DNA from: Rhodospirillaceae bacterium
GTDB taxonomy: Bacteria; Pseudomonadota; Alphaproteobacteria; GCA-2731375
DNA: 32,438 nt
Direction: 5' to 3'
Assembly: GCA_018667855.1 (NCBI GenBank)
Contig: JABIRL010000363.1
Location: 1-32,438 of the forward strand
Program-made: the position numbers and the translations under genes
The notes under the pieces: generated by a model
Databases searched by the model: none
What the model was told of the DNA's origin: nothing
What the model saw: only the letters and a program-made list of their open reading frames with translations
Shown here: positions 10,304-32,438 of the stretch, piece after piece
Layout of the letters: each line of letters starts with the position of its first letter
How positions within the stretch are numbered: the first letter of the stretch is position 1

Positions 10304-10807
10304 TTATAGCGGCATTGGCTGGTCCATGTCCTCCCGCTCTTCATCGTTCGATGAATCCAGGCGGGATAGCCAGGCCTGAACCATGCGAACATGTTCAGCT
10401 TCCTCGGCCGCGAATTCGGTCGCCAAAGTGCGCAGATCGCCCTCGGGTATATTGGCGGCATGATGTTCATAGAAATCTCGCGCCCGGCGCTCGGCCGCCA
10501 AGGCCTGGGTCAAGGCCTGCCGTGGTGACATTAAATGATGGACATCGCCGAACGGAATAACTTCCGGGCTTTCGAGACTGCCCCAACTATAGTCCGTGGC
10601 AGCCAGGGTGACATTGGCGGCACCATGTTCAAGGCTGAGTTCAGCGGCGTGTTTTGCCTCGATTTCCGCCAATTTTGAGAATAGGTCGCCGACCTCATGG
10701 TTGTTGGAGGTGTGCATTTGCGAGGCCAATTCCTCATAACGCTCGGCGGCTTCGCTCTCTATGGCATAGGCGTGGGCCAGCAGAGTGGCCCGGTCCGTGA
10801 TGGTCAT
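10304..10807 (-). CDS. Ferritin-like (rubrerythrin-type) di-iron protein
   Basis: A 167-residue four-helix protein with di-iron ligands spaced as in the ferritin/rubrerythrin superfamily. Helix 1 has IESEAAERYEELA, helix 2 EIEAKHAAEL, helix 3 LAAERRARDFYEHHA and helix 4 EFAAEEAEHVRM, giving the paired E...ExxH motifs. No rubredoxin domain with CxxC pairs is present, so it is not a full rubrerythrin. Its start overlaps the korB stop as ATGA, so the two are translationally coupled. A role in peroxide/O2 scavenging or iron supply for the oxygen-sensitive Fe-S enzymes encoded alongside (KorB, BcrA/D, ferredoxin) fits the context and is inferred. Confidence 0.83.
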   Translation of the reverse strand: MTITDRATLLAHAYAIESEAAERYEELASQMHTSNNHEVGDLFSKLAEIEAKHAAELSLEHGAANVTLAATDYSWGSLESPEVIPFGDVHHLMSPRQALTQALAAERRARDFYEHHAANIPEGDLRTLATEFAAEEAEHVRMVQAWLSRLDSSNDEEREDMDQPMPL

Positions 10808-16036: not shown

Positions 16037-16051
16037 GGGGAGGATCACAAT

Positions 16052-17389
16052 ATGGACTGTTTTATCGGTATCGACCTGGGCTCCACCACCACCAAGGCGG
16101 TGGTGATGGATCAGAACCTGCAGGTTCTGGGCCGGGGTATCACCAATTCCCGCTCCAACTATGACGTGGCGGCCGAGGTTGCCAAACAGGAGGCCCTGCT
16201 GAATACCCGCTTCCATCTGTTCCGCCAAAGCCTGGATGGCGTTTCCGCGTTGGATGGCCGCTTGGACGAATTCCTGGACCAGCTGGTGCGGGACTTCCGG
16301 TTGGAGCAGTTTCTGGAGCAGTTGGCTGATCTGGAACAAACTTGTATCGCCAATGCGGATCCCGAACGTTTCGGCGGCGAGACGGAAGCCTTACATGAGG
16401 CCCTGGCCGAGGTCTTTCGTCGGTTGACGGTGGAGGCGCCGGAGCAGTTCGCGCCGGGCGCCCAGCGCAAGTCAGATTTCTTTCGCGATATCGCCGGCTC
16501 CCGCTATCTGGCGGTGGGCGAGGCAGTGGCAGGTGAATGCGATCTATCGTTTGATCATGTCCTGAACGTCTATGACCGTTCCATCATCGATGTGGAAAAC
16601 CGCATTTCCGAAGAGACCCTGTCGGACAAACTGCTGCGCGCCTTGGACCGGACCTTTACAGCTTTTGCCGATCTGTCGGCGGCCTCCGATGCGGTACATG
16701 CACCGATCAGGGCGGTACTGGATACGGCGTTGCAGGAAACCTATGTCATCGGCACCGGCTATGGCCGGGCCCGGCTGCCGTTCTCCAAGGAACATATTCG
16801 TTCGGAAATTCTCTGCCATGGTCTGGGCGCCCATGTCATGTATCCCGACACCGCCACCGTGCTCGATATAGGCGGCCAGGATACCAAGGCGATTCAGGTT
16901 GATCCGGCGGGTATCGTGGAAAACTTTCAGATGAACGACCGCTGCGCCGCCGGTTGCGGCCGCTACCTTGGCTATATCGCAGACGAAATGAACCTCGGGC
17001 TGCACGAACTGGGGCCCCTGGCGCTAAAATCCACCCGTAATGTGCGCATCAACTCCACCTGCACGGTTTTCGCCGGGGCCGAGTTGCGCGACCGGCTGTC
17101 CCTGGGGGAGGCCCGGGAAGATATCCTGGCCGGACTGCATCGCGCGATCATTCTGCGCGCAATGTCGATCCTCTCGCGTTCGGGCGGGATCCGCGATCAA
17201 TTCACCTTCACGGGCGGCGTCGCCAATAACGGCGCGGCCGTGAAGGCCTTGAAGCAGTTGATCAAGGAAAACTATGGCGACCTGACCATCAACATCGACC
17301 CGGATTCCATCTACACCGGCGCCCTGGGCGCGGCGACCTTCGCCCGCCGGGCGGTGGATGGCGACGCAACGGCAATTACGGAGCACTAA
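16052..17389 (+). CDS. bcrA: Benzoyl-CoA reductase subunit A, ATPase/electron activator (class I)
   Basis: A 445-residue ASKHA-fold ATPase of the BcrA/BadF/HgdC type. The phosphate-1 motif is [15 protein letters not shown] (~residues 6-20) and the second phosphate/adenosine motif is [13 protein letters not shown] (~272-284). The inter-subunit 4Fe-4S ligands are predicted to be Cys298 in DRCAAGCG and Cys337 in NSTCTVFAG. They are 39 residues apart, the same distance as in HgdC-type activators. The long insert between ~60 and ~240 distinguishes BcrA from the shorter BcrD. It pairs with BcrD; ATP hydrolysis drives ferredoxin electrons to the BC module. The ribosome site is GGGGAGG, 8 bases before the ATG. 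Confidence 0.93.
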
Positions 17390-17390
17390 G

Positions 17391-18245
17391 ATGCAGATCC
17401 ATACAACGGCGGGAATCGACATCGGCACGGGCGCGGTCAAGGCGGTCTTATTTCAGAGCGAGGGCGGCGAAAATCCGAAATGGCTCGGCAAGCGGCTGGA
17501 GCGTATTCGCCGGCGCGATCCCCTGGATCTGGCCCGCCAATGCTTTGAGGAAATGCTGCTCGAGGCCGGCGTGCGGGAAGTCGACGTCAACTATATCGCC
17601 ACCACGGGCGAGGGCGAAAACGTTGAATTCCGCACCGGTCATTTCTATTCCATGACCACCCACGCCCGGGGCGCGATCTTTCTGCAGCCCGATACACGGG
17701 CGGCGATGGATGTGGGCGCCCTGCACGGCCGTGCCATCCGGGTCGATGCGCGGGGCAAGGTGCTGACCTACAAGATGACCAGCCAGTGCGCCTCAGGCTC
17801 CGGGCAGTTTCTGGAAAATATCGCCCGCTATCTGGGGGTTGCCCTGGACGAGGTCGGGGCCTTGTCGCAACAGGCTGATGACCCCGAGGCGGTCAGCTCC
17901 ATCTGTGCCGTGCTGGCGGAGACGGATGTGATCAACATGGTCAGCCGGGGTATCTCCACGCAAAATATTCTCAAGGGCATCCATACCTCCATGGCCGATC
18001 GGCTGGTCAAGCTGTTGAAGTCCACCAAGGTGGATGAAGGCGTGGTGCTTGTCACCGGCGGCCTGGCCAACGACAGCGGCCTGGTCGCGACCATGGCTGA
18101 GCGTATGGCGGCGCAGAAGATGGATGGCCTGGAATTGCAATCCCATCCGGATTCAATTCATGCCGGCGCCATCGGCGCGGCCCTGTGGGGCGCCTTCCGC
18201 CACAAGAAGTTGGCGGATCTGGAAGCCCTGCCCATTGCATCCTGA
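17391..18245 (+). CDS. bcrD: Benzoyl-CoA reductase subunit D, ATPase/electron activator (class I)
   Basis: A 284-residue short ASKHA ATPase (BadG equivalent). It begins GIDIGTGAVKAVLF (phosphate-1) and has DVGALHGRAIRVD as the second motif. Its cluster cysteines are Cys133 in SQCASGSGQF and Cys172 in SSICAVLAE, again 39 residues apart, so a single 4Fe-4S can be shared between BcrA and BcrD. A longer frame from 17358 overlaps bcrA, but GGAG 7 bases before the ATG at 17391 marks the real start, one base after the bcrA stop. The C-terminus has LVTGGLANDSGLVATM, typical of the fold. Ferredoxin follows 34 bases later. Confidence 0.92.
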   Translation: MQIHTTAGIDIGTGAVKAVLFQSEGGENPKWLGKRLERIRRRDPLDLARQCFEEMLLEAGVREVDVNYIATTGEGENVEFRTGHFYSMTTHARGAIFLQPDTRAAMDVGALHGRAIRVDARGKVLTYKMTSQCASGSGQFLENIARYLGVALDEVGALSQQADDPEAVSSICAVLAETDVINMVSRGISTQNILKGIHTSMADRLVKLLKSTKVDEGVVLVTGGLANDSGLVATMAERMAAQKMDGLELQSHPDSIHAGAIGAALWGAFRHKKLADLEALPIAS

Positions 18246-18791: not shown

Positions 18792-20078
18792 ATGACAGCC
18801 GGTACCGCGACTTTTCTTGGCAGTGCGTCAGAGCGTTTGCTGCCGCCCGGCATCGTGTTTCGGTTTTTCGGCACGGCGGTCATATTCCACGCCGTCGCCT
18901 GGGCCGTTGTGGCCATGCATGGCGAACAATTATCGGAATACCGGGGCGGGAGCGGGCCAATACTGGCGGCACTGCACCTCGTCACCCTGGGTGTATTCAC
19001 CATGACCGCCATGGGCGCCAGTCTGCAGCTGTTGCCGGTCGCGACCCTGCAGGGTTTTGCCGCGCCGGGCGCGATCAGTGCTTTGTGGTGGCTGTTTACG
19101 GCGGGAACCATTTGTTTGACCGTGGGCATGTACTGGAACAGTTATCAGGCCATGATACTGGGCGGCGGCGCCGTGACCCTGTCCGTCGTATTTTATCTCT
19201 GCCTGCTGGTGGGAAATCTGCGCCAGGGTGGAGCCATGGCGGTCGTGGTCGCGCATGGCCGGCTGGCGGCATTCTTTCTGGTTGTCCTTTTGGTCCTGGG
19301 TTTGGCTTTGATCATCAACCAACGGACAGGAATGTTGGCCGATAGCCAGCGCGCCGGGATCAGCCATATGTTGCTGGCCGCGTACGGATTCATGGGTCTG
19401 CTGGCCATGGGGTTTTCCTATGTTTTAATACCCATGTTCGCCTTGGCGCCCAACCCGCCGGACAGATGGGCGCTGCTTGCTTTGATCTGCATCTGTGTCG
19501 GGCTTGCCCTGGGCGTGACGGGCACATGGCTGGGCCGCGACGCCTGGGCCGCTGTTGGCGGCGGCCTCGGCTTGCTGGGCGGCGCCGTTCATGTTGCCTT
19601 GATGGTTCTAACCCTTCGGCGGCGAATGCGGAAGCGGTTGGGTCCGGCCTTCACTCTGATCCGGCTGTCGTGGGCGCTGTTTCTGCTCAGTCTGCTGTTG
19701 GGAACGGCCTGGACGATCGATTTGTCCGGGGACTGGGGACCGGCCATGTTTGGCCTGGCTTTGCTGGGTTGGTTGTTGAGTCTGTTGCTGGCGATCCTGC
19801 AACGGATTGTGCCCTTTCTGGCTTCCATGCATGCGGCCGCCAATCTGAAACGACGGCCGCCGACGGTAACCGCGCTGACCGCACCGGGGCCGCTTGCCAT
19901 ACATCTCTGCTGCCATTGCGGCGCCCTGGCGCTGTTGGCGCTGGGTATTCTTCTGAACCTGCCGCTTTTGGTGAAATTGGGGGCGGTTCTGGGTTTGGCG
20001 GGGGCCTTGGCTTTCGTCTGGTTTTTCTATCTGGCCATGGCCAAATTCCGAACCGCACTTTCACCACTCACGCCATGA
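18792..20078 (+). CDS. Polytopic membrane protein, NnrS / heme-copper oxidase subunit I-like
   Basis: A 428-residue, very hydrophobic protein with about twelve predicted membrane segments. The stretch AALHLVTLGVFTMTAMGASL (~residues 57-76) and a later VVAHGRLAAFF resemble the histidine-bearing helices of NnrS and of small heme-copper-oxidase subunit I-like proteins. Another candidate ligand is ISHMLLAAYGFMGLLAMGFSY. A HLCCHCG segment lies near the end. NnrS proteins relate to nitric oxide stress, binding heme and copper; the neighbours (DUF2249, hemerythrin) support this group. The start may be the ATG at 18792, or a GTG at 18774 overlapping the preceding gene. Function is inferred from family resemblance and context. 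Confidence 0.6.
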   Translation: MTAGTATFLGSASERLLPPGIVFRFFGTAVIFHAVAWAVVAMHGEQLSEYRGGSGPILAALHLVTLGVFTMTAMGASLQLLPVATLQGFAAPGAISALWWLFTAGTICLTVGMYWNSYQAMILGGGAVTLSVVFYLCLLVGNLRQGGAMAVVVAHGRLAAFFLVVLLVLGLALIINQRTGMLADSQRAGISHMLLAAYGFMGLLAMGFSYVLIPMFALAPNPPDRWALLALICICVGLALGVTGTWLGRDAWAAVGGGLGLLGGAVHVALMVLTLRRRMRKRLGPAFTLIRLSWALFLLSLLLGTAWTIDLSGDWGPAMFGLALLGWLLSLLLAILQRIVPFLASMHAAANLKRRPPTVTALTAPGPLAIHLCCHCGALALLALGILLNLPLLVKLGAVLGLAGALAFVWFFYLAMAKFRTALSPLTP

Positions 20079-20748: not shown

Positions 20749-21918
20749 TTGAAGACGACTGATCTGGTTGCTTTCGCCTCCGATCCGGCTTTTGCCGTCA
20801 ATGGGGATATGCGGGTGGTGGCGTGGAATGCTGCCGCCGAGACCTTGCTGGGTTATTCCGCCGCCGAAGCCGTTGGGCAAAGGTGCGGCCATGTGTTGCA
20901 GGCTTTCTATCCCACGGGCGAGCCGCTTTGTTCCATTCTATGCGAGGGCCGGGCCTGTATGGGTATGGGGCATAAATGGTCTCTCGCCGCCTGCCGCATC
21001 CGACACCGTAGCGGCGACATGGTTGCCGCCGGGATCTCCACGCTGGTCTTGCCGGTCGACGCGAGAACGGAACCCGATGGTGACGCGGTCGCCGTGATTT
21101 TCATGCGAAATATAAGTGGCGAAGCCGAGGAAATCGGGGCCGTAACACCATTGCGAATTTTTACCATGGGACAGTTCGGCCTGGCGATCGCCGGCGAAGG
21201 GTTGAACGTTGAAGGCTGGAAGCGGAAACAGGCAGCCATGGTTCTGAAAATCCTGGTCAGTCATCTGGGCCGGCCTGTTCACCGCGAGCGGCTGATCGAA
21301 TGGCTATGGCCCGATGCGGATGCGACCCGCGGTTGGGAGCGTTTGAAAGTTACAGTTTCCTACCTGCGGGGCAAGTTGCGCGCCGGTGGCGGCGTGGAGG
21401 ATGTGATTGAAACGGTGGGTCAATCCTATTTGCTGCGCCGGGATGCGGTCTGGGTTGATTCAGACGCATTCGCTTCCTTGGTTACGGCCGGTTTGGAATT
21501 TCTTGCCGACGATAACTTGGGTGAAGCACGGGCCCGTTTTGAGGAGGCGGAAAGCCTCTATCGCGGTAACTATCTGGAAGACGAACCCTACGCCGAATGG
21601 TGCGCCGAAGAGCGGGAGCACTTGCGCGAGGTTCACCTCGAACTGTTGGCCGGAATGGCGAAAACCTATGCCGCGGAAGGTTTGTATATGGAAGCCTCCC
21701 GCGTTTGCCGCACCGCACTGTACCATGATCCCTGCCGCGAAAGTTTTTTGCGCGCCTTGCTTGAAAACCTCGTCAACTTTGGCCGACCGGACTGGGCCGA
21801 GGCGCACTATGCGTCATGGTGTCGCAGCCTTGATGACGAATATGGTCTGCAGCCGACCGATGAAACCCTCAGAGTTTACCGCGATTTAGTCGCCGGGCGG
21901 AGTGCCGCCGCCAGCTAA
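20749..21918 (+). CDS. PAS-domain SARP-like transcriptional regulator (winged helix plus BTAD)
   Basis: A 389-residue regulator of unusual architecture. Residues ~1-125 form a PAS domain (AFAVNGDMRVVAWNAAAETLLGY) with five cysteines: Cys46, 61, 65, 70 and 82. Four of them are in the stretch EPLCSILCEGRACMGMG and just before it, so metal, Fe-S or redox sensing is possible. Residues ~140-225 are an OmpR/SARP-type winged helix (LKILVSHLGRPVHRERLIEWLWP, LKVTVSYLRGKL). The rest is a BTAD tetratricopeptide-like domain (ALYHDPCRESFLRALLENLVNFG, YGLQPTDETLRVYRDL). The start is a TTG with AGGGGGA 7 bases upstream; the nearby ATG at 20742 terminates after six codons. It lies between an FNR-type box and the downstream reductase genes, so I infer it controls them. 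Confidence 0.82.
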   Translation: MKTTDLVAFASDPAFAVNGDMRVVAWNAAAETLLGYSAAEAVGQRCGHVLQAFYPTGEPLCSILCEGRACMGMGHKWSLAACRIRHRSGDMVAAGISTLVLPVDARTEPDGDAVAVIFMRNISGEAEEIGAVTPLRIFTMGQFGLAIAGEGLNVEGWKRKQAAMVLKILVSHLGRPVHRERLIEWLWPDADATRGWERLKVTVSYLRGKLRAGGGVEDVIETVGQSYLLRRDAVWVDSDAFASLVTAGLEFLADDNLGEARARFEEAESLYRGNYLEDEPYAEWCAEEREHLREVHLELLAGMAKTYAAEGLYMEASRVCRTALYHDPCRESFLRALLENLVNFGRPDWAEAHYASWCRSLDDEYGLQPTDETLRVYRDLVAGRSAAAS

Positions 21919-21970
21919 CTGGCTGTTTCCGACTGTTGTTCATGATCCTGACATGACCTGGCGGCGCGGT

Positions 21971-22001
21971 GTTACCGACGTGTTACCGCCCCATGCTACC
22001 G
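21971..22001 (+). repeat. Heptamer direct-repeat array 1 (GTTACCG), candidate SARP operator
   Basis: Three direct heptamers: GTTACCG at 21971, GTTACCG at 21982 and GCTACCG at 21995, so spacings are 11 and 13 bases. SARP-family regulators bind heptamer direct repeats spaced about 11 bases, one DNA turn. It lies just after the SARP-like gene. An autoregulatory or downstream role is possible. Confidence 0.5.
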
Positions 22002-22070
22002 ATTTGCCATGTCCAAAAGACAGCAAACTTCACAGCAAAATTCGATGCGGCATCGGATGTTTCCCCCGGT

Positions 22071-22112
22071 GTTACCGCCAGTATTACCCATGGTGTTACC
22101 GCAGCGTAACCG
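22071..22112 (+). repeat. Heptamer direct-repeat array 2 (GTTACCG), candidate SARP operator
   Basis: Four heptamers: GTTACCG (22071), ATTACCC (22083), GTTACCG (22095), GTAACCG (22106), with spacings 12, 12 and 11 bases. The last two also form a GTTAC-N6-GTAAC inverted pair, so the array may serve a dimer as well. It lies 70 bases upstream of the small ORF at 22182 and ~340 bases upstream of the first peroxidase gene. No clear -10 hexamer was found at the expected place. A short GC-rich hairpin (22141-22154) follows. Confidence 0.5.
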
Positions 22113-22454: not shown

Positions 22455-23576
22455 ATGAATAGAAAATTACCGTCAAGGATCGTCAGGCTGGTGCCCTTGG
22501 CGACCGGCGCCGTGATTGCCGCCATGCTGGCCGCCTCGCCGGCAGCGGCAGCGGACTTCGGACCCGTCAAGACCATGAAGGTCGACGCCAAGAAGGCCGC
22601 GTTGGGCAAACGTTTGTTTTTTGACCCCCGTCTGTCGGGGGATGCCGCGATCAGCTGTTCCACCTGTCATATCCCCGACAAGGGTTTCGCGGATGGGTTG
22701 CCGCTGGCCAAGGCCTATCCCGGATCGGAAGGTTTTCGTAACACGCCCACCTTGATCAACGCCGCGCAAAAGGCGGCCTGGTTTCATGACGGGCGCATCG
22801 GCACCAACCTGAACGATGTGACGCGCGAATCCATCACTGAAACCTACTCCATGAACATGGACATGCGTCTGATGCAGGAACGCATCAAGCAGGATCCCAT
22901 CTATGTAAAGATGTTCAAGGATGCCGGCTATGGCGAACCGTCCAACGGGTCGGTCCGCAAGGCAATTCCCGAATTTCTGAAAACCCTGACATCGCGGGGC
23001 GCGCCCTTCGATAAGGGCAATTTGTCCGACGCCGCACAGCGCGGTTTTGAGCTGTTTAAGGGCAAGGCCGGCTGTGCGCAATGTCATTCCGGCGACAGGT
23101 TCAGCGACGATCAACCCCATAACACGGGCGTGCCGGAAAATCCCGAGATCTGGTCGAACCCCTTGCGGCACATTACCTACGTCGCCTTCGGCATGTTCAT
23201 CGGTATTGAGAATTATATGAACGTTCGCCGGGACGTGGGCGCCCATATCCGCACCCACAAGTCCGATGGCTCCGATATCGGCAAGTTCATGACGCCGACC
23301 CTGCGGGAGCTGAAACAGACCGCGCCGTACATGCACAACGGCACCATGGCGACCCTGGCCGACGTGGTGACCTTCTACAACAACGGCGGCGGCACGGATG
23401 CCAATCAAGATTCCCGGATCAAACCCCTTGGTCTCAGCAAGGAAGAGCGGGCCAATCTAGTTGCTTTCCTGGAATCCCTCTCCGGCGATCCCCTGACCGG
23501 GCCCGAGCATGTCTGGAAGGACAAAATCAATGTCAATTACGCGGCCATCGAAAACTGGCTGCAAGCGAAGAATTAG
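22455..23576 (+). CDS. Di-heme cytochrome c peroxidase/MauG-family protein, IdrP-like
   Basis: A 373-residue periplasmic protein. The signal peptide spans ~residues 1-31, ending ...ASPAAAA before DFGPVK. Two c-type heme sites are seen: CSTCH (Cys68, Cys71, His72) and CAQCH (Cys207, Cys210, His211). The C-terminal part has APYMHNGTMATL, typical of the CCP/MauG family. A nearby ATG at 22434 exists, but TGAGAGG 7 bases before the ATG at 22455 favours the latter. It is one of two such genes ahead of a Rieske and a molybdopterin gene. In iodate reductase clusters two such peroxidases (IdrP1, IdrP2) are thought to process hydrogen peroxide or hypoiodous acid produced in iodate reduction. Whether this is P1 or P2 cannot be told by eye. 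Confidence 0.85.
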   Translation: MNRKLPSRIVRLVPLATGAVIAAMLAASPAAAADFGPVKTMKVDAKKAALGKRLFFDPRLSGDAAISCSTCHIPDKGFADGLPLAKAYPGSEGFRNTPTLINAAQKAAWFHDGRIGTNLNDVTRESITETYSMNMDMRLMQERIKQDPIYVKMFKDAGYGEPSNGSVRKAIPEFLKTLTSRGAPFDKGNLSDAAQRGFELFKGKAGCAQCHSGDRFSDDQPHNTGVPENPEIWSNPLRHITYVAFGMFIGIENYMNVRRDVGAHIRTHKSDGSDIGKFMTPTLRELKQTAPYMHNGTMATLADVVTFYNNGGGTDANQDSRIKPLGLSKEERANLVAFLESLSGDPLTGPEHVWKDKINVNYAAIENWLQAKN

Positions 23577-23585
23577 GAGATCGCC

Positions 23586-24728
23586 ATGAAAAAGAGCAAA
23601 ACACTCTCGCTCGCGGTCGTTCTGATCGCACTGGGTATTTCATCACCGGCCACGGCTGATATGAACCCGCCGCTGGCGGCACTGGGCCCGGTCCCAGTCC
23701 CCGCCGATAACCCGCAAACACCGGCCAAGATCGCGCTTGGCAAGTTGTTGTTCTTCGATACCCGGATCGGCGGTGACGCCTCCGTCTCCTGTGCCGATTG
23801 CCATATGCCGAAACAGGGCTGGGGTTTCAATGATCCCATCTCCCGCGGCTACCCAGGCGTCATTCACTGGCGCAACAGTCAGACGGTCGTCAACTCAGCC
23901 TACCTTGGTAAGTTGTTCTGGGCCGGCTCGGCCAAGTCCCTGGAAGCACAAGCGCCTGGCGCCGCGTTGGGTGCCGTGTCGGGCAATGGTGAACGGGATA
24001 TGGTCGAGGCGCGTCTCGCCTTTATTCCGGAATACGTCAAACGTTTCAGGGACGTGTTCGGTGACGATTGGCCAAAGGTCAATAACGTCTGGAAAGCCAT
24101 GGCCGCGTTCGAACGGACATTGATCCATGATCAGACACCGTTCGACAAATTCATGCGTGGTGACAAAGACGCCTTGAGTGCCGAGCAGAAGCACGGCTTG
24201 CGACTGTTCCAGGGCAAGGCCAATTGTATCGAGTGCCACAACGGCCCGCTGATGACGGACCAGAAATTTTACAACCTTGGTGTTCCCCGTGCCGAAGACT
24301 GGCTGGAGAACGGCATGGCGCAAATCACCTTCCGCTATGAGCAATATGCCAAGGGCACGACGGAAAAGCTGTATCGCACCATCAAGGATGATGCCGGCCT
24401 GTACTACCGGACCAAGGAAAAGTCCGACATGGGCAAATTCCGCACACCGCCCCTGCGTTACATCGCTTACACGGCACCGTACATGCACAACGGCTCGTTC
24501 TTCGACTTCGATGAAATCGTCGAATTCTACAACGAAGGCGGCGGCAGCAATGATTTCACCGACGGCAAATTCGCCAAGAACAAGACCAAGCTGCTGAAAC
24601 CGTTGAATCTCTCGGACAAGGAAAAGGTTGCTCTGGTTGCCTTCCTTGAAGCCCTCAGCGGCAAGGAAATCAAAATGTCGACGCCGAAACTGCCGCTCTA
24701 TGCGCCGCTACCGGCCGCGACCAATTGA
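23586..24728 (+). CDS. Di-heme cytochrome c peroxidase/MauG-family protein, IdrP-like
   Basis: A 380-residue paralogue of the preceding gene with its own signal peptide (MKKSKTLSLAVVLIALG... cut after PATA). Heme sites are CADCH (Cys69, Cys72, His73) and CIECH (Cys214, Cys217, His218). It shares the APYMHNGSFFDFDEIVEFY segment and the LVAFLEALSG tail with its neighbour, but is clearly diverged, so the pair is not a recent duplication. AGGAG lies 6 bases before the ATG and 4 bases after the stop of the first peroxidase gene. The next gene starts 11 bases after its stop, so peroxidases, Rieske and molybdenum subunit look like one operon. Function as above; the sequence shows no lid cysteine or tryptophan cofactor features to choose MauG over CCP. 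Confidence 0.85.
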   Translation: MKKSKTLSLAVVLIALGISSPATADMNPPLAALGPVPVPADNPQTPAKIALGKLLFFDTRIGGDASVSCADCHMPKQGWGFNDPISRGYPGVIHWRNSQTVVNSAYLGKLFWAGSAKSLEAQAPGAALGAVSGNGERDMVEARLAFIPEYVKRFRDVFGDDWPKVNNVWKAMAAFERTLIHDQTPFDKFMRGDKDALSAEQKHGLRLFQGKANCIECHNGPLMTDQKFYNLGVPRAEDWLENGMAQITFRYEQYAKGTTEKLYRTIKDDAGLYYRTKEKSDMGKFRTPPLRYIAYTAPYMHNGSFFDFDEIVEFYNEGGGSNDFTDGKFAKNKTKLLKPLNLSDKEKVALVAFLEALSGKEIKMSTPKLPLYAPLPAATN

Positions 24729-24739
24729 GGATATGGGAC

Positions 24740-25330
24740 ATGAATAAGCACATCCAAAAGAAACCTGAATCCGGCGTCCGCTCCCTGCCGTCGAAGAAGG
24801 ACCACCCGGCTGGCAAATGCCTGATGTCACGGCGCAAGATGTTGTTTGCTTCCGGCATGGCAACGGCAACGGTAATGGTCGCCATGAGTGCCGATCCGGC
24901 GGCGGCCAAGGTTCCGGCCATGGTGGCGACCTATCCCCGCAAAAAAATCGCCAAGTTAAGCGAATTGAAAACCGACCAACCAATCGGCTTCGAATATCCG
25001 GACCAGGGCGCCTATGCGCAATCCATGCTGGTCAAGATGGGTACGGAAGCGGGGGGAGGTATTGGCCCGCAAAAGGACGTGGTCGCCTTCAACTATTTCT
25101 GCACCCATCAGGGTGGCGATTTGTCGGGCACTTACAAGGGCGACACCAAATCTTTGGGCGCCTGTCCGCTGCATCTGTCCACCTATGACCTGACCCGTCA
25201 CGGCATTCTGATTTCCGGCCAGGCCTATCAGAGCCTGCCGCAAGTGCTGCTCGAACTGGACGGCGACGACATTTATGCCGTCGGCGTGTTCGGCCTGATC
25301 TTTGGCCGTTACGACAACCTGCAAGGATAG
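24740..25330 (+). CDS. idrB: Rieske 2Fe-2S subunit with Tat signal (IdrB/AioB-like)
   Basis: A 196-residue Rieske protein. A long basic N-terminus precedes a twin-arginine signal, MSRRKMLFASG (Arg31-Arg32), followed by a hydrophobic stretch to ...PAAAK. Cluster ligands are Cys121 and His123 (CTHQGGD) and Cys142 and His145 (CPLHLSTYD). The two extra cysteines that form a disulfide in classic Rieske proteins are absent (Gly and Leu instead). AioB-type subunits of arsenite oxidase share this size and signal, and IdrB is its iodate reductase counterpart. A TTG at 24725 would add five residues; the ATG at 24740 has GAGGAT upstream. It likely exports the folded A subunit with it, since the next gene lacks a signal. 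Confidence 0.82.
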   Translation: MNKHIQKKPESGVRSLPSKKDHPAGKCLMSRRKMLFASGMATATVMVAMSADPAAAKVPAMVATYPRKKIAKLSELKTDQPIGFEYPDQGAYAQSMLVKMGTEAGGGIGPQKDVVAFNYFCTHQGGDLSGTYKGDTKSLGACPLHLSTYDLTRHGILISGQAYQSLPQVLLELDGDDIYAVGVFGLIFGRYDNLQG

Positions 25331-25343
25331 GGAGAACGATAAG

Positions 25344-28016
25344 ATGTCGACCCCATATTACATTCCAGAAACCAACGTTCCCCTGCCCCCCAAGGGCGCC
25401 GAGGTTATCACCACAGCCTGTGACTACTGCATCGTCGCCTGCGGCTACAAGGTCTACCGCTGGCCTGTCGCCGGCGGTCACGACGGCGGCCCGAAGGCTG
25501 AACAGAATGCCTTTGGCGCTGATTTCCCGGTGGAAACCCTGGGGCCGTGGGTAGCGCCCAATCAGCACAACATCGTGCTGCACAACGGTGAACCCAACCA
25601 CGTGGTGATCATCCCCGACAAGGACACCAAGTTCGTCAACACGGATGGAGATTCATCCCTTCGCGGCGGCTGTATTGCCCAGAAATGCTATAATCCACAG
25701 ACTCCCACCCGCGATCGGCTGAAATCACCGATGATGCGCATCTATGGCATCCTGCAACCGGTGCCGTGGGACTTCGCCCTGGATGTAGCGGCCGAAGTTG
25801 GCAACTATGTGCGGACAAAACATGGCGTCAACGCCTACGGCGTGAAGACTTATTCCTATCAGTATATCGAGAATACCTACGCCATTACCAAATATGCCCT
25901 GCGTCATGTGAACACGGCCAACTTTACGTTCCATGATACCCCGTCCGATGTTTCCTCGACGCCGGGCTTCCGTGATGCCGGTTTCGATAACTTCGGTCCG
26001 GCCTACGAAGACTGGATGAATGCCGAGACCCTGTTGGTCTGCGGTACGGATCCGTATGAGACCAAGACCATTCTGTGGACCCAATGGATCATGAAAGGCA
26101 TCCAGAACGGCCAAAAATGCATCATGATGAACCCGCGCCGCACAGCCGGCGTGGCCTATGCCGAAAAGAACGGTGGGCTGTGGCTGGACGTTAATCTGGG
26201 CACCGATCTGCTGGTGGTGAACGCCATCGCCAGGATCATCGCCGAGAACGGCTGGCAGGATGCCGACTGGATCAAGAACTGGGTCAACAACAAGTGGGGT
26301 TCGTCCTCGGGCTTTGGTCAGGGCACCCGCAACACACCGTGGCAATGGCGCACGACGTGGGGCAAGTTCCAGACCAACGGTTATGATGACTGGAAAAAAT
26401 GGCTGCTGTCCCGGGACGAGTTCAAGCCGGAGAACGCGGCACAGGTCGCCGGCATCGACGTCAAGAAGATCTATACCGCCGCCGAGTGGATGGCCAAGCC
26501 CAAGGGCGGCAAACGGCCCAAGACCTCGATCATGATCGAGAAAGGCTTCTATTGGTCCAACAATACCGGCAACACCATGGCTATCAGCGCCCTGGCGATC
26601 ATCGTCGGTGCCGGCGGCAGGCCGGGTCAGGTTGTCGGCCGGGCCGGCGGCCATCAACGTGGCGGCCAGCGCGGCGGCAAGTACCCCCGCAATAAATCCC
26701 CCATGAAAGTGCCGGGCCGTCGCCGGCGCGCCCTCGACACCGATACCTGGACCATGTCGGGGCATACCCGTTTTGCCCATGTCATCGGTACGACCTGGAT
26801 CCAATCCATGTGCGGCAGCCAGCAACTGGCGAAAAAATTCGAGGAGATGACTGTCGCCAACCCCCATCAAATCCGCTCCTACGATAAGCAGGATATCATC
26901 GATACCCTGAAGCGCCGGGCGGATTCGGGCGGCATGGTGGTGATCAATCAGGATATCTATCTGGTCGACCCTATCGGTAATCGCTACGCCGATATCATCT
27001 TTCCCGCCGCCACCTGGGGCGAGGAAACATTCATGCGGGCCAATGGTGAACGGCGTCTGCGCGTCTATAACAAATTCTATGACGCGCCGGGCGAGGCCAG
27101 ACCGGATTGGTGGATCATCGCCGAATTGGCCAAGCGTATGGGTTTCGACGGCTTCGATTGGAAAAACTCCAATGACGTGGCCGAGGAATCTGCCCGCTTC
27201 TCGCGCGGCAGCCGCAAGGATTTCAACATGATCAAGGTCGCCGCCCGACGTGAGGGCAAGACCCTGCATCAAAAGTTGGGTGAATTCGGAACCAACGGCA
27301 TCCAGGGTCCGGTATTCATGAAAGACGACGGCACCCTTGTCGGTACCAAGCGGTTGCATGATACCACCCGTAAACTGCCAGAGACCGGACCGGCCGCGGG
27401 CAATGTCTTCAACAAGAAGCTGACCCACTTCAACAGCCAGACCGGTCGCTGCAATATCGAGAAATCGCCCTGGTCCCTGTTCTCGGACTATTGGGAATGG
27501 ATGAAGCCCAAGGGTAACGAGCTGTGGTGCACCTCCGGCCGCACCAACGAGCGGTGGCAGTCGGGCTTCGATGACCGCCGCCGTCCGTATGTGGTGCAAC
27601 GCTGGCCGGACAATTACGTGGAAATGCATCCCGATGATGCCAAGGAACGGGGCATCGAAAGCGGCGATATGCTGATGGTCTACTCCGATCGGGTACCCAA
27701 CCTGAAGGAAACCATCCTGGGTGTCGAGGGCAGCGACTACAGCTTCTCGGGCCAGATGAAGGCCGGCAACGTGGAGCTGACCCGGGCCGCCGTGACCGGT
27801 GTTGCCATGGTCACCCGGCACATCAAGAAGGGCATCATCTTCATGGACTTCCTGCATACCTCGCAGCCCGCGAATGCGCTGGAAGGCCGTGTCGTCGATT
27901 GGATCAGCGGCAATTACAACTACAAAATGGGTGTCGCCAAGGTGAAGAAGATCGGCGTCTCGCCCTATAAAAATACCTTCCGTTCCATGTCCTTCGCACC
28001 AAGGGACATCACCTGA
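25344..28016 (+). CDS. idrA: AioA-family molybdopterin oxidoreductase, probable iodate reductase catalytic subunit
   Basis: An 890-residue molybdopterin oxidoreductase of the arsenite oxidase (AioA) branch. The N-terminal Fe-S motif is Cys26, Cys29, Cys33 (ACDYCIVACG). The fourth ligand position reads SSLRGG (~104-109), as in AioA with its 3Fe-4S cluster, not a cysteine. Domains include AYEDW near 220-224, GRAGGHQRGG (Arg433, His437), a basic GRRRRALD stretch (~464) and the C-terminal molybdopterin-binding region (LWCTSGRTNERWQSGFDD). It has no signal peptide, so it probably hitchhikes with the Tat-exported Rieske subunit. GGGAG 9 bases before the ATG supports this start. The gene set P-P-B-A matches IdrABP1P2 in content. 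Arsenite oxidase is the main alternative. Confidence 0.75.
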   Translation: MSTPYYIPETNVPLPPKGAEVITTACDYCIVACGYKVYRWPVAGGHDGGPKAEQNAFGADFPVETLGPWVAPNQHNIVLHNGEPNHVVIIPDKDTKFVNTDGDSSLRGGCIAQKCYNPQTPTRDRLKSPMMRIYGILQPVPWDFALDVAAEVGNYVRTKHGVNAYGVKTYSYQYIENTYAITKYALRHVNTANFTFHDTPSDVSSTPGFRDAGFDNFGPAYEDWMNAETLLVCGTDPYETKTILWTQWIMKGIQNGQKCIMMNPRRTAGVAYAEKNGGLWLDVNLGTDLLVVNAIARIIAENGWQDADWIKNWVNNKWGSSSGFGQGTRNTPWQWRTTWGKFQTNGYDDWKKWLLSRDEFKPENAAQVAGIDVKKIYTAAEWMAKPKGGKRPKTSIMIEKGFYWSNNTGNTMAISALAIIVGAGGRPGQVVGRAGGHQRGGQRGGKYPRNKSPMKVPGRRRRALDTDTWTMSGHTRFAHVIGTTWIQSMCGSQQLAKKFEEMTVANPHQIRSYDKQDIIDTLKRRADSGGMVVINQDIYLVDPIGNRYADIIFPAATWGEETFMRANGERRLRVYNKFYDAPGEARPDWWIIAELAKRMGFDGFDWKNSNDVAEESARFSRGSRKDFNMIKVAARREGKTLHQKLGEFGTNGIQGPVFMKDDGTLVGTKRLHDTTRKLPETGPAAGNVFNKKLTHFNSQTGRCNIEKSPWSLFSDYWEWMKPKGNELWCTSGRTNERWQSGFDDRRRPYVVQRWPDNYVEMHPDDAKERGIESGDMLMVYSDRVPNLKETILGVEGSDYSFSGQMKAGNVELTRAAVTGVAMVTRHIKKGIIFMDFLHTSQPANALEGRVVDWISGNYNYKMGVAKVKKIGVSPYKNTFRSMSFAPRDIT

Positions 28017-28121: not shown

Positions 28122-30335
28122 ATGATTATTCACCGCGACCAAGCGCAGTTTCAGCCGAGCGAGCCCGAAACGCCCGTTGGCCCAACCGAAGTATGCCGGA
28201 TGTTGGGCAATATTCTTGCCGATGGCGTCGATGTACACCGTTGTCTCGCGGCCCAGGCCTTGGGACGAATTGGCGGTGAAGATACGTTGCAACCGTTGAT
28301 CACCGCGTTGCTGGACGAAGACGAGGATGTGCGCACGGACGCGGCCGAGGCCTTGGTTCGTCTGGCCGATCCCCGGGCCGGGCAACAGCTGCTTGAAAAC
28401 CTGCTCGGCGATCCCTGTGCCGAAGTCAAAATTGCCGCGATCGAGGCTCTGGCCAAGCTGGGCGACAACAGCGTTATCCCCTGGCTGCGCCGGATTGTCG
28501 CCGGCCGGGATGAAGAGATCGTCTGGGATGAACAGGAATTTTATTCAAGCGGTTGGGATGACTGGGTCGATATCCAGATTGCGGCGGTCAAGGGCCTGGC
28601 CGAACTTGGCGTGGGCGAAGCCGTACCTGACATCATCGCCGCCATGGCGGATGAAGCCGGCCAGGATATGACGGAAGTTGCCTTTAAGGCGCTGGCCCGC
28701 ATGGGCGAACCGGGAATTCAGGCTTTGGCGGGCATTCTCGATGATCCATCGGCCCGCCTGCGTCGACGCGCGGCGACGGCGTTGGCCTCCAGCCAGATCG
28801 AAGGCGCGCGGGACTATTGCGCCGGTGCGCTGATCGATACGGCGCCGGAAGTCCGCTTGGCCGCGTTGCGTGGCATGGCTGCGGGCGATGCCGCCGATTC
28901 CCGTCTTGAACCCTTATTGCGGGATCCAGACGCCGGGGTTCGGGCTGCCGCCATCACCCTTTGCGCCGTCCACTACGTGGATCAGTTGTCCGTCGCCATT
29001 GCCGATGACGCGATCCAGGTGCAGCTGGCCGGCTTGATTGTTATCGCCGGGCTATCCACTGCCTCGTCTGACGAGGCTTTGTCCGACCAGGCGTTGTTGG
29101 CCGCGGTCCGCGATCGGCTGACGGGTGAAACGGCGGCGGCAGCGGCCCGTGCGTTTGCAGCTTTGGCCCGGGGTGGGGCGATGGCCGAGTTGACCGGTAT
29201 GTTGCAGGATGTTGATCGGCCCGAAGCCGACCGGTTGGGTGCATTGCAAGGTTTGGCTGCGATCGGCGGCGGCGAGGCGGTCGCCGCCTTGGTCGCCGTG
29301 GTCGATGACAAGGATCGCCCGATCCGCCTCGAAGCCATGTCGGCCTTGGGTAAATTGGCGGTTCAAGATCAAATTTGGCCCAACGAGGCCGGCTCGGCAT
29401 TGATCGCGGCGCTGGGCGGCTGTCATGAGCCGGACGAGCCCCCCGAGCCCGCCGTCGCCGAAGTGATACCGCTTCAAGTACCCTCTGAACCGGCGCTACC
29501 TGGTCCGGCGCCGGAACAGACCGCGTTTCCCACCTCCACCCTGAACGCTCTACTGGCCGATGTGCCCGAGGCGCGGGAGACGGCCGGTTTGCCCCGGGAT
29601 GGCGTTGAACTGACACCGATGGATATGGAACGCTTGGCCCTGGCGAAACGGATCAAGAAAAGCAAGAAACGCATGCCGATCGCGCCAAAAGTGGTGCGCC
29701 ATCAGGATATACGGCGGTTTGCCGCCCGCGTGCTGGGTGAATTGCCCCATGGGGATGTGGCCCAACAGCTGGCCCTCGCCCTTGCGGACGGCGATGGCGA
29801 GGTTCGCATGGCGGCGGCGGATTCACTGGCTCGTATTGGTGCGCGGCCGGGCACGCTGTGCGACGACGTCTCGGCGGCGATTTTAACGGCGTTGGGCACG
29901 GCGGACCGTGATTTGAAGCTGCTTCTACTGCGCGCCTTGGCGGGCTGTCCCGGTGAGGACGCCATCGTGGCGTTGCGCGGGTATCTCGTGGACGAGGATT
30001 CGTTCCTGCGTTCGGAGGCCATTCGCGGCCTTTCGAATTTGGCTCGGGTCGGACCGGAGATCGATGACCTGCTGGGAGATCCTGACCCTTCCGTCCGCCT
30101 TTGCGCGGCCGAGGCCATCGCGATGGAAAAGGCCGAACGCGCCATTCCGGCCCTGGTCGATTTCGCCCTTTCGTTCGAGGGCTACCACGGCAAACAGGCA
30201 GCCGGTCTGCTTCGTGAACTGGATGCAGCGGCGGCCGGCGGGCTTTTCCTAAATGTATTGCGCGATCCGGCGTACAAGCGCGCCTGGGCCATCGCCATTC
30301 CTGCCCTGGGCACTTTGAACGAACAAAAAGCATAA
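28122..30335 (+). CDS. HEAT-repeat protein
   Basis: About 737 residues of tandem PBS-lyase-like HEAT repeats, such as LGRIGGEDTLQPLITALLDE and LVRLADPRAGQQLLENLLGD, each of ~30 residues. Two repeat blocks (~15-435 and ~530-735) are separated by a Pro/Glu/Ala-rich linker and a basic KRIKKSKKRMP segment (~435-530). There is no signal peptide or transmembrane segment, so it is cytoplasmic. HEAT proteins are scaffolds; in molybdoenzyme or cytochrome operons they may help subunit maturation, which is my inference. A TTG at 28071 gives a longer frame, but it lies by the hairpin, so I chose the ATG at 28122; neither has a strong ribosome site. It lies between the reductase genes and the cupredoxin gene on the same strand. 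Confidence 0.75.
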   Translation: MIIHRDQAQFQPSEPETPVGPTEVCRMLGNILADGVDVHRCLAAQALGRIGGEDTLQPLITALLDEDEDVRTDAAEALVRLADPRAGQQLLENLLGDPCAEVKIAAIEALAKLGDNSVIPWLRRIVAGRDEEIVWDEQEFYSSGWDDWVDIQIAAVKGLAELGVGEAVPDIIAAMADEAGQDMTEVAFKALARMGEPGIQALAGILDDPSARLRRRAATALASSQIEGARDYCAGALIDTAPEVRLAALRGMAAGDAADSRLEPLLRDPDAGVRAAAITLCAVHYVDQLSVAIADDAIQVQLAGLIVIAGLSTASSDEALSDQALLAAVRDRLTGETAAAAARAFAALARGGAMAELTGMLQDVDRPEADRLGALQGLAAIGGGEAVAALVAVVDDKDRPIRLEAMSALGKLAVQDQIWPNEAGSALIAALGGCHEPDEPPEPAVAEVIPLQVPSEPALPGPAPEQTAFPTSTLNALLADVPEARETAGLPRDGVELTPMDMERLALAKRIKKSKKRMPIAPKVVRHQDIRRFAARVLGELPHGDVAQQLALALADGDGEVRMAAADSLARIGARPGTLCDDVSAAILTALGTADRDLKLLLLRALAGCPGEDAIVALRGYLVDEDSFLRSEAIRGLSNLARVGPEIDDLLGDPDPSVRLCAAEAIAMEKAERAIPALVDFALSFEGYHGKQAAGLLRELDAAAAGGLFLNVLRDPAYKRAWAIAIPALGTLNEQKA

Positions 30336-30350
30336 CGAAAGGACAATTCC

Positions 30351-31136
30351 ATGCAGCTCAATAAATTGACCATTGGCCTGGCCTTTAGCATCTGCGCCGC
30401 CCTGGCCTTTGCCGCGCCCAGTGAAGCGGCGAAGCGGGGCAAGTACAAGGAAGCGGCCGTGACGGATGGCGGCGCGGTCATGGGCAAGGTCAGTTTCGAA
30501 GGCGCGGTTCCCAGTGACGCCATCGAAAATATCCTGATCACCAAGAACGTGGATGTCTGCGGCAAGGGCGAGCGTGAAGTGGTCTGGGTTGATGTGAAGG
30601 GCGGCGCGCTGCGGGGCGTGTTCGTTTTTCTGGATAAAATTAAATCCGGCAAAAAGTGGGGCAAGCCGGAATTCGGCGAATATATGGTCAATCAAAAGGG
30701 TTGCCGCTTTCGTCCCTGGGCCCAGGTCGTGCGGCCCGGCCCCTTCGTGATCCGTAACAGCGACGCGGGTGTCCTGCACAATATCAACGCGCGGGAATTG
30801 ATCGGCGTCGAAAAGGGCCGGGTGGTGAAGAAAACCCTGTTCAATTTCGGCCAGCCGGACCCGGGCGATATCAAGGACAAGATCAAGCCGCGCCGGTCGT
30901 CCTATATCGGTATCAACTGCGAAGCCCATAATTTCATGTTCGGCTTCATCCTTGCGCCGACGCATCCCTACGCGGTGGTGGTCGGCGAAGACGGCTCCTT
31001 CTCCATCGATAACATTCCGCCCGGCAAGTACACCCTGAAGGCCTGGCATCCCCGCTTCGGCATCAAGAAAGCCAAAATCACCGTTGCCCCCAAGGGCACG
31101 GTGGAAACCAACTTTGCCTTCGCCGAGGCCCAGTAA
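30351..31136 (+). CDS. Secreted cupredoxin-like protein with C-terminal regulatory-like beta domain
   Basis: A 261-residue exported protein with a signal peptide (MQLNKLTIGLAFSICAALAF, cut near SEAA). Residues ~35-205 resemble the plastocyanin/methylamine-utilisation-type cupredoxin family. Predicted type 1 copper ligands are His143 (VLHNIN), Cys190, His193 and Met196 (NCEAHNFM, a C-x2-H-x2-M set). Cys70 and Cys118 may form a disulfide. Residues ~215-260 form a short carboxypeptidase regulatory-like strand domain (DGSFSIDNIPPGKYTLKAW). AAAGGA lies 7 bases before the ATG. It lies 15 bases after the HEAT gene and 38 before the membrane gene, so a shared operon is likely. A role as periplasmic electron carrier is inferred; a purely structural copper-less version is possible. 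Confidence 0.7.
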   Translation: MQLNKLTIGLAFSICAALAFAAPSEAAKRGKYKEAAVTDGGAVMGKVSFEGAVPSDAIENILITKNVDVCGKGEREVVWVDVKGGALRGVFVFLDKIKSGKKWGKPEFGEYMVNQKGCRFRPWAQVVRPGPFVIRNSDAGVLHNINARELIGVEKGRVVKKTLFNFGQPDPGDIKDKIKPRRSSYIGINCEAHNFMFGFILAPTHPYAVVVGEDGSFSIDNIPPGKYTLKAWHPRFGIKKAKITVAPKGTVETNFAFAEAQ

Positions 31137-31174: not shown

Positions 31175-32438
31175 ATGATGGCGAGCAGAAAATCCAGCAA
31201 GGGAACGAGCGGTTGGTTCGACCGGTTTTTCTCCCTCGGCAACTTGGGTCTGACAAGTTTTCTGGTGCTCTGTCTCGCCGTCGCCGCGACCCCGGCCCTG
31301 GCGCTGGAGGAAAATGTCTACCGCCAGTTCCTCGGCATCGATTCACGGCGTCTGATCTGGTTCCTGGCCCAGATGCATCTGTTCTTCGGCGCTTTCGTCC
31401 TGGGCGTGCCGCTGTTCGCGGTCATCATCGAAATTGTCGGCTGGAACAACAAGGATCCGAAGTTCGACAAACTGGCCTACGAATTCACCTCTCTGTTGAG
31501 TGTCGCCTACGCCACTACAGCCGCCCTGGGCGGCCTGTTGGCGTTCGCGCTGTTCACCCTGTATCCGACCTTCATGGGGTACATGGCGGGCATCTTCAAG
31601 GACATCATGTTCCTCTATGCCCTGCTGTTCTTCGGCGAGACCTTCGCGCTGTATATGTACTACTACGGCTGGCATTGGCTGAAGAGCGACAAGCCGTTCC
31701 CGGTCAGCCTGCAATGGCTATTCCGGCTGTTTGCCATTCTGATCGCGGCTTTTGGTCTGGTCTTCGCCCTTGGCCTGTTTGGCCCGGAAATGCGGCCTGA
31801 CACCCGCTGGTTCATCCTGCTGCTCTACATCACGCCGACAGCCATCGGCTTCTGGATGATCCGGGATCTGAAGTCCTCGCACATTTTTATCGGCATCATG
31901 CTGAACGTGTTCGGCACCGCCATCATGCAACTGGCCAATTCCTGGGCCGGCTACATGATGAGCCCGACCGGCGTTGACGGCGACGGGGTCTTTGTCGGCA
32001 CCGTCTGGAATGCTTTCGAAAACGTCCTGGCCACGCCCATCGCCATTCACCGCATGCTGGGCAATCTGGCTTTCGGCGGCCTGGTCGCCGGCGCCTACGC
32101 CGCCGTCAAGTTCATCGGCGCCAAGACCCCGGCCGAGAAGGCTCACTACGACTGGATGGGCTATATCTCCAACTTCGTGGCCATAGCCGCCCTGATCCCG
32201 CTGCCCTTCGCTGGCTACTATCTGGGGCGGGAGGTCTATTCCACCTCCGCCGTGATGGGCAATAACATGATGGGCGGTGATTTCTCCTGGACCTTCATCA
32301 TCCAGGCCATGCTGGTGGGCTCCCTGTTCGTAATCTCCAACTATTATTTGTGGAGCGGCATGACCCGCATCCCAGGAGCACAGCGCTATTACAAGTTCAT
32401 CAAATACATACTGTTCGCGTTGATCGTTTCCTTCGCCA
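31175..32438 (+). CDS. Cytochrome bd-type oxidase subunit I-like membrane protein (3' truncated by window)
   Basis: An incomplete polytopic membrane protein, 421 residues visible. A basic start (MMASRKSSKG) and a first hydrophobic stretch (ending ...TPALALEEN) look like a cleavable or anchoring N-terminus. His68 (LAQMHLFFGAFVLG) sits where CydA-type subunits carry their first heme histidine, and Glu155 (FFGETFALYMYYYGW) matches the acidic residue of the heme helix. I also see RMLGNLAFGG, and at least nine membrane segments overall. The large quinol-binding Q-loop of CydA is not obvious in the visible part. CydA-like proteins of this divergent kind occur in nitrite-oxidising and anammox bacteria; their role is unsettled. 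Following the cupredoxin gene, it may connect the periplasmic pool to the quinone pool for the upstream reductase. Confidence 0.6.
   Translation, partial: MMASRKSSKGTSGWFDRFFSLGNLGLTSFLVLCLAVAATPALALEENVYRQFLGIDSRRLIWFLAQMHLFFGAFVLGVPLFAVIIEIVGWNNKDPKFDKLAYEFTSLLSVAYATTAALGGLLAFALFTLYPTFMGYMAGIFKDIMFLYALLFFGETFALYMYYYGWHWLKSDKPFPVSLQWLFRLFAILIAAFGLVFALGLFGPEMRPDTRWFILLLYITPTAIGFWMIRDLKSSHIFIGIMLNVFGTAIMQLANSWAGYMMSPTGVDGDGVFVGTVWNAFENVLATPIAIHRMLGNLAFGGLVAGAYAAVKFIGAKTPAEKAHYDWMGYISNFVAIAALIPLPFAGYYLGREVYSTSAVMGNNMMGGDFSWTFIIQAMLVGSLFVISNYYLWSGMTRIPGAQRYYKFIKYILFALIVSFA

Follow-up and report, generated by a model that had tools for sequence, protein, structure and literature searches.

The idr-type operon and its gene products

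The window, by which we mean the whole stretch of 32,438 bases analysed here, is contig C279 of a 5.3 Mb alphaproteobacterial draft genome and carries an operon that we assign to the iodate reductase (Idr) family. Its four genes lie on the + strand at 22455-28016 in the order P2-P1-B-A and are separated by gaps of 9-13 nt in the open reading frame (ORF) reading. They encode an idrP2-like di-heme peroxidase of 373 aa (22455..23576), an idrP1-like di-heme peroxidase of 380 aa (23586..24728), an idrB-like Rieske subunit of 196 aa (24740..25330) and an idrA-like molybdenum catalytic subunit of 890 aa (25344..28016). Both peroxidases match Pfam CCP_MauG and possess two CxxCH motifs and a hydrophobic, Sec-like N-terminus each. 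The Rieske subunit carries the Tat-like motif SRRKML and the Rieske motifs CTH...CPLH, and the catalytic subunit carries CDYCIVAC, a CxxCxxxC cluster motif. No export signal was seen on A; export signals were judged by motif, hydropathy and eye. The initial annotation of this DNA had described a peroxidase-peroxidase-Rieske-molybdenum operon, and indeed all four ORFs are found where it placed them, with families and motifs in agreement.

By NCBIfam, A and B would be named large and small subunit of arsenate reductase (azurin), with matches to TIGR02693 and TIGR02694, respectively, that both exceed the curated cut-offs. The closest solved structures in PDB are the arsenite oxidases AioAB, i.e. 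AioB chains in the case of B. Because of the family name, Idr genes are easily miscounted as arsenic genes.

The catalytic subunit and both peroxidases group with Idr

Relatives of the operon were drawn from whole genomes, plasmids and named genome contigs (for the contigs, the best 80 of 495 relatives were kept), and Denitromonas iodatirespirans IR-12 (locus L097) served as reference Idr. Deletion of idrA in this strain abolishes growth by iodate respiration (PMC8692401; the literature is cited here and below from excerpts of the papers). A careful tree of the catalytic subunit was calculated from 30 of the 103 unique sequences, comprising 25 Idr-type and 5 AioA rows. The two types are separated at 100/100, and the window and IR-12 both fall into the Idr half, 49% identical to each other; identity of the window protein to AioA amounts to 27-33%. 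Within the Idr half, three clades are seen. Clade I comprises 10 rows including IR-12 (support 97/99) and clade II 13 rows including the window (100/100). Clade III has two rows and joins clade II at 83/67 only, but this union is firmer in the P1 and P2 trees. A quicker tree based on 56 of the 103 sequences recovers the same three clades. The window thus lies outside the clade of IR-12, which lowers the claim to a proven substrate but not to membership in the Idr group.

The residues of the catalytic site are in agreement with this placement. Positions of the arsenite site, for which we take the His and Glu known from work on A. faecalis AioA, were located on NT-25 AioA and compared in 101 sequences, two fragments being left out. 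His and Glu are present in 5/5 AioA proteins and in 0/96 Idr-type proteins; the window has Pro and Asn at these positions and IR-12 Thr/Ser. The Arg and His of an R-x-GGH motif are kept in all 101 sequences, AioA and Idr-type alike. Thirty columns separate Idr from AioA, and their residues are common to at least 98% of the 96 Idr-type rows, across the clades. According to an excerpt of PMC10100899, IdrA has no amino-acid ligand to molybdenum. In the peroxidase tree, P1 clusters in one group with IR-12 P1 and P2 in another with IR-12 P2, both distinct from five further di-heme peroxidases encoded in kin genomes; among these five, the program warned of long branches meeting.

The view of the initial annotation that this is Idr rather than Aio could have failed in two places, at a catalytic subunit falling inside the arsenite oxidases or at peroxidases grouping away from IdrP1 and IdrP2. 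Both checks were run: A falls with IR-12 IdrA outside the AioA clade, and both peroxidases group with their Idr counterparts. On sequence grounds, we regard it as very probable that the operon encodes an Idr-type enzyme of a separate clade, and iodate is its probable substrate.

Published activities were also considered with regard to clade II. In an excerpt of PMC8801600, all iodate respirers confirmed at that time fall into one small clade. Alphaproteobacterial idr clusters are already in print (PMC8692401, PMC11445184), and three marine Alphaproteobacteria are described to reduce iodate, the IdrA of Roseovarius azorensis having a mass of 99.4 kDa (PMC11445184). Among complete IdrA proteins of one family, masses amount to 99.7-100.1 kDa in clade II and to 99.2-99.4 kDa in the clade I type; values of 99.5 and 99.6 kDa are, however, seen in two further proteins of clade II. 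If anything, the comparison speaks slightly against clade II containing a tested protein. In the same family, an IdrA match was found in 21/394 genomes, 17 of them at 74-88%, three at 49-50% and one, partial, at 44%.

The gene order P2-P1-B-A is shared by nearly all Idr loci

After removal of seven duplicate regions, we surveyed 97 loci, whose clades were assigned by identity to the window. The order P2-P1-B-A is present in 83 of the 84 loci with at least 2.9 kb upstream of A, window included, i.e. in 18/18 loci of clade I, 62/63 of clade II and 3/3 of clade III. Linkage of the four genes is therefore far beyond chance. The sole exception, L096, shows no B; together with L090 it represents the two Idr loci of one Hyphomicrobiales metagenome-assembled genome (MAG; OFTM323), and the B gene was not seen in L096. 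The same order is given for Pseudomonas SCT, Denitromonas IR-12 and M. iodofontis (excerpt of PMC10989891), and the IR-12 sequence itself confirms it. The order P-P-B-A had initially been taken as a departure from idrABP1P2, but this name does not reflect gene order and P2-P1-B-A is the standard arrangement.

Idr loci also reside on plasmids. In Vibrio sp. THAF190c, a plasmid replicon of 1.7 Mb harbours an Idr set of clade II (L018; IdrA 66% identity), in which no HEAT-repeat gene of the kind described below adjoins A. The plasmid of Azonexus hydrophilus NCP973 from groundwater (L019) carries a clade I set followed by a c-type cytochrome gene and moaA.

A membrane and cytochrome block follows the operon

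Downstream of A, on the same strand, the window contains three further genes, the last of which begins a block of predicted electron-transfer proteins (cA, cB, cD, cE, EB and CUP are working labels of this analysis). The first gene encodes a HEAT-repeat protein (28122..30335, +) with nine Pfam HEAT_2 stretches and no signal peptide by eye. At loci with 2.5 kb downstream, HEAT adjoins A in 58/62 cases of clade II, 1/1 of clade III and 0/20 of clade I. The clade II loci without it next to A are L018, L054, L096 and L047; the last of these belongs to genome G298, which has a HEAT homologue further down the island (L141).

The product of the second gene, CUP (30351..31136, +), is a putative blue-copper protein whose N-terminus is hydrophobic and whose C-terminal part resembles CarboxypepD_reg, scoring just below the Pfam cut-off. 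His143, Cys190, His193 and Met196 are invariant in 19/19 aligned sequences and are read as a putative type-1 copper site; a PDB search returned no match for the putative copper part. In five betaproteobacterial clade I loci (L074, L077, L098, L115, L128), genes for CUP, a radical SAM protein and a protoporphyrinogen-oxidase-like protein are located upstream of idrP2. Part of the island is thus common to clade I.

The third gene, BD1 (31175..32438, +), encodes a bd-like membrane protein (PF01654) that is cut by the contig end and continues on contig C122 (L159) of the same genome, the contig ends sharing an identical overlap of 58 nt. The order on C122 is: rest of BD1, cA1, cB1, EB1, cD, cE, BD2, cA2, cB2, EB2, a 725-aa ORF, a gene for a radical SAM-SPASM protein and an amine/protoporphyrinogen-oxidase-like gene of the flavin amine-oxidase family. 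Here, cA denotes a diheme cytochrome, cB a membrane cytochrome, EB a diheme EB_dh protein, and cD and cE small cytochromes. The gene order of the block is identical in kin.

Likeness to CydA is confined to the N-terminal part of the bd-like proteins, covering PF01654 positions 3-117 of 418 for BD1 and 2-239 for BD2 of the same genome; the match of BD1 to PDB 5doq_A extends over residues 11-122. In EB1 and EB2 on C122, and in their counterparts of kin, a pair of heme c motifs is found together with a membrane helix. The two sets of block genes are homologous to each other, with identities of 46% (BD), 30% (cA), 31% (cB) and 36% (EB) between the proteins of kin genome G002. EB1 of G002 matches 6h5l_B in PDB with E 1.5e-53 (cytochrome part) and 7b04_C, a subunit C of nitrite oxidoreductase, with E 7e-12; both are, as we assume, Kuenenia proteins. 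Of the last two genes in G002, the former is nearest to NirJ2/AhbD, below their cut-offs, and the latter exceeds the cut-off for protoporphyrinogen oxidase.

Some peculiarities of the block deserve mention. Stretches resembling the C-terminus of BchB, a protochlorophyllide reductase component (PCP_red), occur in two products of the island, the 725/740-aa ORF in its G002 copy and the radical SAM protein (loci L159 11108-14569 and L139). The cA1 gene of G002 (L042, 13.4 kb in island orientation) contains an in-frame TAG, reflecting either an assembly error or a broken gene; recoding was rejected, as nine other kin loci (genome duplicates included) have a lysine codon, AAA or AAG, at this position. 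Spread of the block by plasmids was likewise dismissed, since no plasmid record matches BD1 at 1e-10. A TorD-like chaperone was looked for in the island, but the one PF02613 match of this genome lies on contig C295 and not on C279 or C122.

A SARP-like regulator and GTTACC repeats precede the island

Upstream of the operon, a SARP-like regulator composed of PAS, winged-helix (Trans_reg_C) and BTAD domains by Pfam is encoded at 20749..21918 on the + strand (REG), a gene that also lies upstream of the island in close kin. It is followed at 21969..22101 (+) by direct repeats, which represent putative regulator sites: GTGTTACCG is present at 21969, 21980, 22069 and 22093, and GTATTACCC at 22081, neighbouring copies being 11-12 nt apart. 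In 14/14 loci with REG, GTTACC is found in the stretch that separates REG from the following gene of the island, at least twice in 11 of them, with 11-nt spacing in six and on the other strand in one. Significance was assessed by single-base shuffles only, and the three loci with one copy are not significant (p 0.06-0.11). When the 700 bases preceding P2 are considered, the motif is found in 12/13 loci with REG, in two or more copies in 9/13. In one of the 14 REG loci, that of G092, REG precedes a block without Idr.

The repeats provide separate support for a single regulon that comprises the block as well as Idr, kinship being uncorrected. At one further locus (L076, genome G009), three GTTACC copies precede P2 and REG was not detected within ~7 kb on the upstream side; its gene may be located at another site or be too divergent.

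Co-occurrence of the block with Idr

Within the genus, BD1 is present in 7/7 genomes with Idr and in 0/4 genomes without it. Of four further family members, G012 and G013 lack both, G014 has Idr but no BD, and in G011 the block is present without an Idr match, the contig breaking off inside the HEAT gene. Among 385 genomes of the class, Idr was detected in 12, BD in 10 and both in seven (Fisher 4e-10, kinship not corrected); two more genomes have an AioA-like match only. The same linkage of Idr and block is also found in clade III, i.e. at locus L052, where BD1 is 75-78% identical although IdrA is only 57% identical.

Bd-like blocks of this kind are described from nitrite oxidizers. Type II dimethyl sulfoxide (DMSO)-reductase alpha (TIGR03479) exceeds the cut-off in 0/9 kin genomes, weaker matches being present in 9/9 with the strongest to a 1258-aa frame in G138. 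RuBisCO is encoded in 1/9 and PF00115, the heme-copper oxidase superfamily, in 9/9. Since no type II DMSO-reductase alpha exceeds the cut-off and RuBisCO occurs once, the hosts do not look like nitrite oxidizers.

Benzoyl-CoA reductase genes and other upstream features

Further upstream, the window encodes a complete class I benzoyl-CoA reductase, BcrC-B-A-D (13548-18245), all four subunits exceeding their NCBIfam cut-offs. A 2-oxoacid:acceptor oxidoreductase pair is located at 10807-13349 on the strand opposite to the Bcr genes. The initial annotation had proposed that the benzoyl-CoA pathway would pair aromatic oxidation with an unusual acceptor. The Bcr genes are genuine, but the pairing is weak, since no Bcr homologue was found beside Idr at E 1e-10 in any other fetched locus; 45 clade II loci have at least 9 kb upstream of A, which is enough to include the nearer two Bcr genes if these were spaced as in the window. 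We therefore treat the Bcr genes as a chance neighbour. As for the remaining neighbourhood, the operon had been read as Idr, in agreement with our analysis, but the electron-transfer block behind it and the regulator in front of it had been missed.

ARAGORN predicts a tRNA-Ser(GCT) at 19538-19625, which lies inside a GC-rich, coding-like stretch and is probably spurious. Insertion of the island at this tRNA was rejected, because a repeat of its 3' end is absent from the window and from C122 and the tRNA itself is doubtful.

Model for the role of the island and alternative explanations

Starting from gene content, clade, linkage, co-occurrence and upstream repeats as observed, we infer the substrate, the direction of electron flow and a role for each added gene as follows. 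The best explanation, which we judge to be about as probable as its negation, is that the island specifies an Idr-family iodate reductase located in the periplasm, which is fed from the quinone pool by the linked block. Iodate would be reduced by IdrAB at the molybdenum site, with electrons entering via the Rieske cluster of IdrB and a 3Fe-4S cluster. Electrons from quinol may pass through the block cytochromes, i.e. the two sets of bd-like, c-type and EB_dh proteins, and perhaps through CUP to IdrB and on to IdrA. The peroxidases P1 and P2 would dispose of peroxide or similar products. A part in the maturation of IdrAB may fall to the HEAT protein, which by its look is cytoplasmic; the one TorD-like gene of the genome lies elsewhere. 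The wiring that makes the block the electron donor of Idr is itself a proposition to which we give roughly even weight.

Several observations weigh against this model. We could attach measured activities to no clade II sequence, and it is from four invariant residues that CUP is taken for a copper protein. GTTACC precedes P2 also in 9/68 loci without detected REG, in two or more copies in 2/68. No BD gene is present downstream in 40 of the 57 clade II loci with 8 kb of sequence on this side; in 5/45 clade II loci BD lies upstream instead, there being represented by a more distant bd-like gene, and clade I has BD genes in 0/17 downstream and 0/16 upstream stretches. The block is therefore not needed for Idr as such. 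G014 (81% complete) has Idr without BD, and conversely three of the ten class genomes with BD (G058, G067, G092) have no Idr; no molybdenum enzyme was seen by eye beside their blocks. The bd-like proteins of this block type are described without known quinol-binding residues in an excerpt of PMC3578206, and quinol oxidation by BD is for this reason unproven.

An alternative that we consider possible but rather unlikely is that the block is an independent neighbour, e.g. a terminal oxidase or a redox-stress module, and that Idr is fed by bc1 and a soluble cytochrome c, as proposed for clade I, where the published model runs via cytochrome c551 (excerpt of PMC8801600). It would fit that most loci of clade II, and all those examined in clade I, have no block next to them, and that three genomes have the block without Idr. 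However, an independent neighbour does not readily account for the co-occurrence of Idr and block in genus and class, for their linkage in both clade II and clade III (L052), or for the same REG and GTTACC repeats in front of Idr and in front of the Idr-less block of G092. At the latter locus (L161, contig C75), REG and the repeats lead into the block, and the stretch contains neither Idr nor HEAT, CUP or BD1; it represents a natural Idr-less form.

Another reading, which is compatible with wiring by the block, assigns to the enzyme a different (halogen) oxyanion, e.g. bromate, chlorate or selenate. With 49% identity to IR-12 IdrA, the substrate could have changed, and the arsenite-site columns differ between the window (clade II, Pro/Asn) and IR-12 (clade I, Thr/Ser). 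Since the four genes and their order are the same and the 30 columns distinguishing Idr from AioA are shared across the Idr-type rows, we regard such a change as improbable.

Very unlikely is a complex that runs backwards, in which iodide or another donor is oxidized and, in the manner of nitrite oxidizers, electrons are delivered to oxygen or driven uphill to quinone. We know of no iodide-oxidizing Idr. The block has indeed been described with nitrite oxidation (excerpts of PMC3578206 and PMC6606698) and PF00115 genes are present in all nine kin genomes; however, RuBisCO is found in just one of these and the characterized Idr is a reductase (excerpts of PMC8692401 and PMC11445184). Finally, arsenite oxidase, as automatic annotation would name A and B from their NCBIfam matches and nearest solved structures, is barely conceivable and was ruled out by the 100/100 split of the A tree and the loss of the arsenite-site His and Glu in 96/96 Idr-type proteins, in line with the low identity to AioA and with Aio loci being described without the two peroxidases in an excerpt of PMC8692401.

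Comparison with known systems

With the linked block, part of the alphaproteobacterial Idr clade gains a proposed electron route, which bears on the conversion of iodate to iodide in low-oxygen water; the sample names of some kin MAGs (SI0xx, Arabian12, casp150) are taken by us to stand for Saanich Inlet, Arabian Sea and Caspian. Idr itself and alphaproteobacterial idr clusters were known already, and what is unreported in the searched literature is Idr joined to the block. A combination of Idr with a block of the nitrite-oxidizer type was not found in the literature searched, whose coverage mostly excludes subscription papers and preprints.

AioAB resembles the enzyme of the window in its molybdenum subunit with CxxCxxxC cluster motif, its Rieske partner and the NCBIfam models, but differs in sequence (27-33% identity), in the arsenite-site residues, which are lost in Idr, and in the peroxidases, which are added in Idr. 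With the Idr systems of Denitromonas iodatirespirans IR-12 and Pseudomonas SCT, the window shares the four genes, their order P2-P1-B-A, the export signals, the CxxCxxxC motif and the side of the tree. It differs from them by an IdrA that is 49% identical and belongs to a separate clade, by the extra HEAT gene and by the membrane block linked in the window's lineage. Accessories of known Idr are c551, moaA and a two-component system in an excerpt of PMC8801600, and the known cluster is described without quinone oxidoreductase in an excerpt of PMC8692401.

The architecture of the block matches that of a bd-like/alternative-NxrC/cytochrome c block located beside nitrite oxidoreductase in Nitrospira, Nitrospina and Kuenenia (excerpts of PMC6606698 and PMC3578206), as compared by published descriptions and two PDB chains. 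Both blocks comprise a bd-like subunit that is CydA-similar at its N-terminus, a diheme EB_dh protein with a membrane helix and more c-type cytochromes; in addition, a cupredoxin-like gene lies nearby and the unit is duplicated a few genes downstream, as in Nitrospira. Unlike its counterpart, the block described here is linked to Idr instead of nitrite oxidoreductase, and its hosts are mostly without RuBisCO. Tying this architecture to a different molybdenum enzyme narrows the possible roles of the block and offers a second system for testing it. We tentatively propose that the block connects the quinone pool with periplasmic molybdenum enzymes of high potential as a general wire that can be run in both directions; these Alphaproteobacteria would then respire iodate with a coupling site of their own. 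In nitrite oxidizers, electrons would leave the enzyme for quinone, whereas here, under control of a dedicated SARP-like regulator, they would pass from quinol to Idr.

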